From Proteiniphilum sp. (GTDB taxonomy: Bacteria; Bacteroidota; Bacteroidia; Bacteroidales; Dysgonomonadaceae), in contig JAQVWR010000002.1 of NCBI GenBank assembly GCA_028709605.1, forward strand, positions 19,249-83,248: a stretch of DNA of 64,000 nt. Direction: 5' to 3'. The translations under genes and the position numbers were made by a program. Below, in pieces: positions 498 through 40,103 of this stretch. The notes beneath the pieces were generated by a model, which did not search any database, had not been told where the DNA came from, and was given only the letters and a program-made list of their open reading frames with translations. Position 1 is the first letter of the stretch, and every line of letters begins with the position of its first letter.

Positions 498-660
498 ATC
501 TTTTTTTTTAGATGTTTGAAACAGGTGATCCTGTCAGGTAAGACGATTCTAAGGATCTAACGTTTAGCATGATGTACGTAAAAATTGTTAAAGAGCAATA
601 AACAACCCATGTCCGGCAGAAGTGGGTTGTGATGCAGTTTTCATTCTTCCGGCTCTTCCG

Positions 661-32359: not shown

Positions 32360-32671
32360 TTAGTTGATCGTCACATCGGCTGAAGAGGCAAAGACGGAGG
32401 ATTTCTCAAATTTGATTCTCACACCGTCGGCTACCTCTATCAGGAACCAGGTCTCTCCCACCTCTTTGATCCTGCCGTGTATGCCACCCGAGGTGATCAC
32501 TTTGTCGCCCACTTTCATTGCTTCGCGGCTTTTCTGTAGCTCTTTTTGTTTCTTTTGCTGGGGACGGATCATGAAGAAGTAGAATACGGCAATAATGGCT
32601 ACCATCATAAAAAGGGTGCTGCCCATACCCGACATGCCACCGCCCTGTGCTGCTTGTAATAAAATATTCAT
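32360..32671 (-). CDS. yajC: Preprotein translocase subunit YajC
   Basis: MNILLQAAQGGGMSGMGSTLFMMVAIIAVFYFFMIRPQQKKQKE; ATG at 32671 preferred over upstream extension. Confidence 0.94.
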   Translation of the reverse strand: MNILLQAAQGGGMSGMGSTLFMMVAIIAVFYFFMIRPQQKKQKELQKSREAMKVGDKVITSGGIHGRIKEVGETWFLIEVADGVRIKFEKSSVFASSADVTIN

Positions 32672-32704
32672 ACGATTCAAATTAATGATTTGTAAAGGGA
32701 TCGG

Positions 32705-32759
32705 ATGGAACTCGCTTGAATCATCTACTGGTGTGCGAATGATTGTTATGCTCGTTTCA
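32705..32759. repeat. Copy B of a duplicated intergenic element (nusB-yajC gap)
   Basis: Core 32720-32759 ATCATCTACTGGTGTGCGAATGATTGTTATGCTCGTTTCA, 33/40 identical to 39970-40009. Confidence 0.75.
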
Positions 32760-32795
32760 TACGAACGTTCTTTTTGGGGTGTGTAATAAAAAAAA

Positions 32796-33722
32796 TTAAT
32801 TTTTAAAGATACGATTTTCTTCTTTAATTTCCTGTACGATCGCATCTAAAATACCGTTAATAAAAGTACCGCTCTTGGGGGTGCTGTAGGATTTGGCGAT
32901 CTCTATGTATTCATTCAGCGACACGCTGGTGGGGATTGACTCAAAGGTACAGATCTCACAGAGTGCTACCTGCATGATAATAAGGTCCATGAAAGCAATT
33001 CGGTCGAAATCCCATTTCTCGGTATGCTTCTCGATGAGATCCCGATACTGTTTTTCGTTCAGGATGGTGTTATGCAGCAGCTTCAGTGCAAACTCCCGGT
33101 CTTCGTCATCCTTGAACATAGGCATCAGCGGCTGCTCTGCGCCCTGTTTCTCCGAGAACTTTTTAATCGTTTTCAGCACGAAGCTCTGGACGATCTCCAC
33201 ATCATCATTCCAGTAGATACATTCATCCTCCAGGATATCCTCCAGCTCTTCATTGAGATAGATAAACTGTTTGAAACTTTTTCTCCAGAATTCCCGATCC
33301 TCCTCATAGGAAGGTGACTCTATTGCCGCATACTCCTTATAGGTGTCGGAATCAAGAAGGGTGTCGAGCAGATTTTTCAGGAACGAGTTGTCGGCATCCC
33401 AGATCAGGGGACGCTCGGTTAAATGTTTCTGCAACTGTGTGTTGCTCCTCAGTTGCATTATAAACTTGTTTTGGATGAGATGGGTGTTGGGGTTCAGATC
33501 TTCGTAAGAGGGGAGATGTTTGTTCTTTTTGGCCTCCACCCTGTTTTCATACGCTTTGGTCAGTTCCACCATCAGCAACAGAAGGTAGAAATAGAGGTCG
33601 TATGATTTCTGCAAGCCGAAAAGGAGCTCTTTTTCGGCGCTGCGCAAATCCTTATTCGTATTTTGGTACCATGAATAGACTATCTGTACGATCCGGATAC
33701 GAATTAAATTTCTGTTTATCAT
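32796..33722 (-). CDS. nusB: Transcription antitermination factor NusB
   Basis: 308 aa; C-terminal NusB domain (ALCEICTFESIPTSVSLNEYIEIAKSYSTPKSGTFINGILD). Confidence 0.93.
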   Translation of the reverse strand: MINRNLIRIRIVQIVYSWYQNTNKDLRSAEKELLFGLQKSYDLYFYLLLLMVELTKAYENRVEAKKNKHLPSYEDLNPNTHLIQNKFIMQLRSNTQLQKHLTERPLIWDADNSFLKNLLDTLLDSDTYKEYAAIESPSYEEDREFWRKSFKQFIYLNEELEDILEDECIYWNDDVEIVQSFVLKTIKKFSEKQGAEQPLMPMFKDDEDREFALKLLHNTILNEKQYRDLIEKHTEKWDFDRIAFMDLIIMQVALCEICTFESIPTSVSLNEYIEIAKSYSTPKSGTFINGILDAIVQEIKEENRIFKN

Positions 33723-38659: not shown

Positions 38660-39922
38660 TCAGGAGGGTCGTGATCTCTCCTCTCCTTCCTGTGTTTTTT
38701 CCTCTTCTTCATAGGTTTGATAGAGGAAGTCGTTGTAGGGAAAGCGGGTGATATGAATCTCTTTCACCTGCTTATAGATCAACTGTTTCAACGCCTCGAT
38801 GTTCTCTCTTTTCCTGGCTGAAATGAAGATGCAGTTCTCCCTGATCTTGTTCAGCCACGACTGCTTCAGTTCATCCAGTGTGTAGTTCTCCTGTTTTTTC
38901 GGGGTGAGATCATCTTCCTCTTTCTCCACATGCGAGAAAGCATCGATCTTGTTGAAGACCAGGATCACCGGCTTCTCCGTGTTGTCGATCTCATAGAGGG
39001 TCTTTTCCACCACATCGATCTGTTCCTCAAAGGCGGGGTGGGAGATATCCACCACGTGAAGCAGGATATCCGCCTCGCGCACCTCATCGAGTGTCGACTT
39101 AAACGATTCGATCAGGTGGGTGGGCAGCTTACGGATAAATCCTACCGTATCGGTCAGCAGGAACGGCAGGTTCTCGATGGTCACTTTCCGCACTGTGGTG
39201 TCGAGTGTGGCAAAGAGCTTGTTCTCGGCAAACACGTCGCTTTTGCTGAGCAGGGTCATCAGGGTCGACTTGCCCACGTTGGTATACCCCACCAGTGCTA
39301 CACGCACCAGCTTGCCCCTGTTCTTGCGCTGTACCGCCTTTTGCTTGTCGATATCCTTCAGTTCCTGTTTCAGCCGCGAGATCTTGTCGAGGATGATGCG
39401 GCGGTCGGTCTCCAGCTGCGTCTCCCCCGGACCGCGCATGATGGTTCCGCCTCCTCCCCGCTGCCGTTCCAGGTGGGTCCACATACGGGTAAGACGGGGT
39501 AGCAGATACTGGTATTGCGCCAGCTCCACCTGTGCCTTGGCGTGGGCTGTCTGGGCCCGCATGGCGAAGATATCGAGGATCAGGCTGGTACGGTCCATGA
39601 TGCGGATCATCAGTTCCTTTTCGATGTTGCGGATCTGCTTGGCTGAGAGCTCATCATCGAAGATCACCACCCCCACCTCGTTCTCTTCATCTTTCACATA
39701 CTCCTCAATCTCCTGCAGCTTTCCTTTCCCGACAAAGGTGACCGGGTTGGGCATCTCCAGATGCTGCACAAAACGTTTCCCCGGCACCAGGCCGGCTGTC
39801 TCGGCCAGAAAAGCCAGCTCGTCGAGGTACTCGTTTATTTTCTCCTCATTCTGATCCGGTGTGATCAAACCTACCAGCAGGGCGGTTTCATTTTTTATTT
39901 CGTTGGTAATAAAGTCTTTCAT
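38660..39922 (-). CDS. hflX: Ribosome-associated GTPase HflX
   Basis: 420 aa; RGPGETQLETDRR, GYTNVGKSTLMTLL. Confidence 0.96.
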   Translation of the reverse strand: MKDFITNEIKNETALLVGLITPDQNEEKINEYLDELAFLAETAGLVPGKRFVQHLEMPNPVTFVGKGKLQEIEEYVKDEENEVGVVIFDDELSAKQIRNIEKELMIRIMDRTSLILDIFAMRAQTAHAKAQVELAQYQYLLPRLTRMWTHLERQRGGGGTIMRGPGETQLETDRRIILDKISRLKQELKDIDKQKAVQRKNRGKLVRVALVGYTNVGKSTLMTLLSKSDVFAENKLFATLDTTVRKVTIENLPFLLTDTVGFIRKLPTHLIESFKSTLDEVREADILLHVVDISHPAFEEQIDVVEKTLYEIDNTEKPVILVFNKIDAFSHVEKEEDDLTPKKQENYTLDELKQSWLNKIRENCIFISARKRENIEALKQLIYKQVKEIHITRFPYNDFLYQTYEEEEKTQEGEERSRPS

Positions 39923-39954
39923 TCGTCAATATTCATTTTGTACATGAATGTTCT

Positions 39955-40009
39955 ATGAAACGCACAATGATCATGTACTGGTGTGTCAATGATGTGCATG
40001 CTCGTTTCA
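39955..40009. repeat. Copy A of a duplicated intergenic element (upstream of hflX)
   Basis: Core 39970-40009 ATCATGTACTGGTGTGTCAATGATGTGCATGCTCGTTTCA; terminal TGAAACG...CGTTTCA; followed by a T7 run at 40017-40023. Confidence 0.75.
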
Positions 40010-40103
40010 GATCCTCTTTTTTTGTAACGGGATGCCGGAGCGGTTCCGCAAATCAACTGATTTTTTTGCGGCGGACCAGATGTCGGCACCCGTGGGCGTC
40101 CTC

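Follow-up and report, generated by a model that had tools for sequence, protein, structure and literature searches.

The window (the whole stretch of 64,000 nucleotides that was analysed) carries two copies of M, a dispersed repeat family that is present in many Bacteroidota and that is inserted at ATGAA(A), nearly always the start codon of a gene. We favour, with moderate confidence, the reading that the two are members of a non-autonomous family of mobile palindromes, spread across the phylum and moved in trans by an enzyme. The sequence-only reading had described a duplicated 55-bp intergenic element; re-comparison reproduces its quoted sequences and the identities of the two copies (33/40 in the core, 41/55 over the longer stretch), and the ORF layout agrees that both lie in gaps between co-directional minus-strand genes. 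The 55-bp limits were wrong: read on the minus strand both copies run TATGAAACGAGC...GCGAGTTCCAT, and the likeness extends 30-35 nt more, past 39955 and 32705, as far as the hflX (39922) and yajC (32671) start codons, so that the units are the minus-strand segments given in Table 1 and the quoted repeat is the 5' two thirds of an element of ~89 nt. A plus-strand RNA hairpin with a T-run, acting as a terminator or sRNA, was rejected because the homologous unit runs in the opposite direction and ends at start codons; the T-run is not part of the unit, the meaningful strand being the minus strand.

Table 1. Coordinates of the window copies of M, their stems and adjoining genes, with examples of the related hairpin family H from other loci
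Feature	Position	Strand	Basis
Copy B, complete M (89 nt) at the yajC start	32672..32760	-	profile match G000:C91:51915-52009; empty sites in genus
Copy B, ends	5' ATGAAACGAGC at 32760; 3' end adjoins yajC ATG	-	sequence
Copy B, P1 5' arm ATGAAACGAGC, including left ATGAA of the direct repeat	32750..32760	-	alignment
Copy B, P1 3' arm GCGAGTTCCAT; CAT shared with P2	32705..32715	-	alignment, sequence
Copy B, P2 5' arm CATCCGAT	32700..32707	-	7/8 positions pair with ATCGTATG at 32669-32676
Copy B, P2 3' arm ATCGTATG, holding the yajC start codon (32669-32671) and the right ATGAA	32669..32676	-	
yajC (preprotein translocase subunit), true start MNILLQAAQ...	32360..32671	-	ORF; genus orthologues begin at the same Met
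Copy A, diverged M (88 nt), ends at hflX ATG; left end CTGAAACGAGC	39923..40010	-	profile match E 4e-8
hflX, downstream of copy A	38660..39922	-	ORF and orthologues
H hairpins, examples	L113, L117, L119, L129; L352:9400-9481, L358:763-845, L366:6650-6732		

Copy B is open in the frame of yajC, which is why the mechanically called yajC ORF (32360-32845) carries 58 extra codons and runs through the element. The two arms of its first hairpin, P1, pair with A.C and tandem G.A mismatches, and in folding a second hairpin, P2, is kept, with the start codon paired at ~0.7; the diverged copy A folds into a strong, nearly perfect P1, and P2 is not predicted.

Further copies in the genome, conservation in relatives and covariation were each sought and found. 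The core, at three mismatches or fewer, occurs at five places in the genome of origin, and a sequence-only profile (R1) matches 14 places at E<0.01 in the same MAG. Among the 37 members searched of the genus, which named relatives of hflX place as Proteiniphilum-like (Dysgonomonadaceae), nearly all have R1 matches, with up to 75 per genome among the best 78 candidates scored; one single-contig genome, G015, holds 51 M places at E<=0.01, and 800 kb of it, read as whole stretches, contain 15-17 nhmmer matches. A second profile (R2), built from 31 diverse M copies, recovers the element from 48 of 247 Bacteroidales genomes, from many families, when the best 17 candidates of each are scored; three of these genomes have 93-130 copies (at least 130 in G215), and other classes of the phylum have weaker, divergent but well-formed copies. 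The consensus is ATGAAAYGAGC...GCGARTTCCAT-NNN...NNN'-ATGAAA, and the length is usually 84-93 nt. As this variation does not preserve a reading frame through M, an in-frame coding role, as an upstream ORF (MKRA...) or as an open frame leading into the gene, was set aside. Rfam 15 and, by blast, plasmid and phage databases gave no match to M, and a literature search by motif strings and theme returned no description of it, within a coverage that took in few subscription journals, so that an earlier description may exist. One exact pattern match places M on a Mu-like viral contig, L422 (IMGVR_UViG_3300011323_000053, 515-582, minus strand), before an ORF for a small membrane protein; this is a possible route of horizontal spread.

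Judged from the sequences of filled and empty sites, M is mobile. In G015 an M copy separates ftsW from murG (ATTATTCAGG TATGAAACGAGC...TTTGATCG TATGAAACGG); ~15 sisters have the empty site ATTATTCAGG TATGAAGCG, in which the ftsW stop and the murG start overlap in ATGA, and after insertion the stop is kept by the left ATGAA copy and the start by the right one. At yajC, the site filled by copy B reads ...GTTCGT ATGAAACGAGC...GAATCGT ATGAATATTTT, and in all readable genus orthologues the site is empty and lies directly behind nusB (nusB - TTCGT ATGAATATTTT). Upstream of hflX no relative has a full element, and one has a right-end remnant. The direct repeat common to the filled sites is ATGAA, which stands singly in the empty sites; the second ATGAA is either a duplicated target or brought by the element, and since it lies on both flanks the gene keeps its start codon and the upstream gene survives. 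The sixth base is A in 132 of 138 right ends vs only half of native ATGAA starts, indicating that the target is ATGAAA or that the A is supplied by insertion; at murG, AAG became AAA, and yajC stayed ATGAAT.

The position of M at start codons is precise. In the genus a right end could be defined for 138 copies: 92 of them open onto an ORF of 50 aa or more, ~20 others continue into another array module and a few precede short real genes, e.g. rpmH. Roughly 80% of the non-tandem genus copies end exactly at an ORF start, as do 58/68 copies at the order level and 16/18 at the phylum level. The 800 kb of G015 contain 146 ATGAAA sites close to gene starts, 205 in noncoding and 898 in coding DNA. Had M inserted at random and then been purged from coding DNA, 42-53% of copies would be expected at starts (ATGAAA/TATGAAA sites; p~1e-11); the size of the excess is approximate, since there is some dependence among copies and starts were called by simple ORF rules. 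The bias arises mostly from target choice and the loss of harmful insertions: copies within genes would be lost, and those at start codons would be tolerated because both ATGAA copies keep their role. What exceeds this could reflect selection, better preservation or a real preference. The downstream genes are unrelated (murG, rpmH, nadE, yajC, hflX, cobO, gdhA, sucC, metF, gcvH, and many for SusD and secreted, signal-peptide proteins).

Both stems, P1 (AUGAAAY.GA.GC/GC.GA.RUUCCAU) and P2 (CAU-NNN with NNN'-AUG, containing the new start codon), are maintained by compensatory changes, and they are mutually exclusive because both use the same CAU. For P2, column pair 58-88 in the genus is Watson-Crick in 97/104 copies (CG 60, TA 37) vs 54 in shuffles; at the order level, where the right ATGAA was picked irrespective of complementarity, NNN and NNN' are fully complementary in 68/79 copies, with 220 pairs vs 138 +- 6 shuffled and eight fully matched combinations (CTG/CAG, ACG/CGT, ATG/CAT, GTG/CAC, CCG/CGG, CAG/CTG, TTT/AAA and ATA/TAT). 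P1 is nearly invariant within Bacteroidales; of 19 copies from other classes, 12 have C-G and 7 have T-A at its pair 7-50, and the tandem G.A/A.G and A.C mismatches are preserved in all classes. An alignment of 31 sequences has 88% paired cells vs 15-34% when slid; its excess over column shuffles is small because most P1 columns are invariant, and by some measures the covariation in this small set is weak. The interior of M includes a segment, GUUCCAUNNN, with complementarity to AUGAAAC at the left end and to NNN'AUGAA at the right end. The covariation supports the hairpin and is equally compatible with action as DNA or as RNA: a covarying structure is a feature of cis-regulatory RNAs that P1 and P2 share, and DNA hairpins would pass the same test.

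Four features suggest, by analogy with IS200/IS605 (PMC6006769), that M transposes as a single strand in trans: its fixed, asymmetric target, its lack of terminal inverted repeats, its conserved imperfect hairpin and its internal segment complementary to both junctions. An enzyme supplied in trans would recognise the folded single strand, with the tandem G.A mismatch in P1, cut after ATGAA at both ends and join M behind a target ATGAA, as in single-strand transposition; M would then serve as a 5' leader or intercistronic leader, with P2 predicted to hold the new start codon and P1 competing for the same CAU. IS200/IS605 elements transpose as single strands guided by short pairing (PMC6006769), and their derivatives have, like M, an asymmetric short left-end target, hairpins and an internal sequence able to pair with the cleavage sites. 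The ATGAA(A) target and the internal UUCCAU fit such a guide, but the base preceding the left ATG shows no correspondence with it, and no association was seen for guide-to-target pairing beyond ATGAA. Unlike IS200/IS605, which transposes without target duplication, M has ATGAA on both flanks after insertion, as a direct repeat, and no TnpA gene is present in G015, G022 or G007.

Y1 transposase genes (PF01797, Y1_Tnp) were searched in eight genus genomes: none was found in the M-rich G015, G022 and G007 or in G013, G008 and the MAG of origin, and those of G018 and G010 are degenerate or partial. Ten other genomes, sampled as M-bearing, have Y1 genes with no M nearby. A RAYT/IS200 enzyme was rejected as the mobiliser, because Y1 is absent from three M-rich genomes and elsewhere adjoins unrelated palindromes. 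Small Bacteroidales Y1 genes are flanked (L402-L421) by other GC-rich palindromes, e.g. CCCCAGCCTGAAGGCTGGGG and ATTGGCCTTTAGGCCATTC, as their own REP-like sets, and by motifs they resemble Bacteroidetes subclasses 1.2 and 2.6 of PMC6006769. Clustering of the ORFs near 100 copies, in search of an autonomous form, returned only SusC/SusD and chance repeats, and half-elements in the ~1.2 Mb that were closely read enclose no ORF and gave no autonomous copy.

The sequence-only reading had offered three explanations: a small dispersed repeat, REP/MITE-like, a regulatory RNA family or a protein-binding site. The dispersed mobile repeat is borne out by the additional copies, the presence in relatives, the covariation and the empty sites; membership of the REP or MITE classes is not, as their defining features are missing, and a regulatory effect is a prediction. 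REP/REPIN palindromes, mobilised by TnpA-REP (RAYT) (PMC3733652, PMC3116915, PMC8266576, PMC6006769), are like M short, non-coding, palindromic, high in copy number, mostly outside genes, arranged in tandem arrays and presumed to be moved in trans; unlike them, M is ~90 nt long and AT-rich and ends exactly at start codons. The GTAG/GTGG or CGTC tag at the foot of REP hairpins is absent from the M consensus, and a Y1 gene flanked by the repeat was found neither in the eight genus genomes searched nor in the 10 other M-bearing genomes. Rickettsia palindromic elements are likewise ~100-nt palindromes scattered at many unrelated genes (PMC3733652); many of them lie inside reading frames, whereas M precedes the start codon and leaves the gene's frame unchanged, so that they are set apart by their description in that source. 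An attC-like integron site was also rejected, its motifs not being conserved.

In folding models the start codon of M is expected to be paired with a probability of 0.89, vs 0.59 for shuffled elements and 0.52 for native starts, and on this modelling an effect of M on translation is likely. Riboswitches and thermosensors that sequester start codons likewise form alternative leader hairpins, one of which holds the AUG; unlike them, M is mobile, precedes no common set of genes, has no common ligand and matches no Rfam family. M might instead be primarily a cis-regulatory RNA switch, spread and kept for gene control, in which P2 sequesters the start and P1 or a factor frees it. The precise start-codon position, the phylum-wide conservation of the P1 sequence, the covarying P2 that always holds the start codon, the exclusivity of P1 and P2 and the predicted pairing of 0.89 speak for such a switch, but the downstream genes are unrelated, the same gene lacks M in sister species, copy A has no predicted P2 and some copies end away from any start, and we regard it as unlikely. 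We are just as doubtful of a phylum-wide family of mobile translational switches, in which the internal guide GUUCCAUNNN would find start codons, insertion would be guided and the start would come under two competing hairpins.

Less probable still is movement through RNA, in which the internal GUUCCAUNNN would guide a joining akin to reverse splicing behind AUGAA, with reverse transcription to follow. The internal segment complementary to both junctions does resemble an internal guide, and an RNA intermediate would explain insertion in sense orientation at the starts of transcribed genes; the asymmetric target is, however, sufficient alone for that orientation, no ribozyme core or reverse transcriptase was seen, the guide does not predict the base that precedes the left ATG, and the related H hairpins enter after GAA in both orientations, away from starts. 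There is little to be said for M as a standard DDE-transposon MITE that duplicates 5-6 bp of its target (ATGAA/ATGAAA), even though it is short, non-coding and multi-copy, with a flanking direct repeat and lineage-specific insertions: it has no terminal inverted repeats (left ACGAGCATG vs right end read back CTGTTTATAA or ACGATTAAAA), the supposed "duplication" is invariant and asymmetric, always ATGAA(A), where that of a MITE varies, and no parent of full length came to light. A one-off local duplication or chance similarity, suggested by the presence of just two copies in the window, is refuted by the combined pattern, which has two occurrences in the window and none in 100 dinucleotide shuffles, and by the further copies, spread over many contigs and hundreds of genomes.

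A palindrome of this kind represents an unusual survival strategy, a mobile element that selects start codons and leaves the gene intact. In important bacteria of gut, soil and digesters, M rewrites the 5' leaders of dozens to >100 genes in each genome, and it raises two testable questions, namely what enzyme moves short palindromes without a RAYT and whether repeated leader insertion affects translation of the host's genes. M insertions also likely cause misannotation of start sites, as in the extended yajC ORF.

Tandem M arrays share TATGAAA and at times include a second module (ATGAAACCGACATG...). In arrays with M (L037, L039, L077, L127) stands a second start-codon module, ATGAAACCGACATGTTTAAAATAATCATT...AATGATTATTTTAAATATCAAAGGTTCCATACACC...AATCGTATGAA, and a further insert lies within M after GAGTT (GCCTCCGGCTAAGATTTTAAAAGAAGTCGGCGATTTCGCTTCGCTCAATTGTC; L066, L113, L122, L140). 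The hairpin family H, GAA|CTATTTCGTTAAGC...GAGAAATAGTCTAATTTTAATGAA, follows GAA in both orientations and ends in TGAA; it is intergenic, also away from starts, and is nested within M and within H itself. The (T)GAA rule common to M and H suggests common machinery. The left end of the M consensus, ATGAAACGAGCATGA, reads as a tiny ORF, MKRA-stop, so that in many copies the former start codon comes to open a short upstream ORF. Some copies, e.g. that of L022 (GATACCTTTGAAAATAAATAA), contain TACCTTTG, a fit to the -7 motif of Bacteroidetes promoters, TAnnTTTG, ~25 nt before the start codon, and others are without it.
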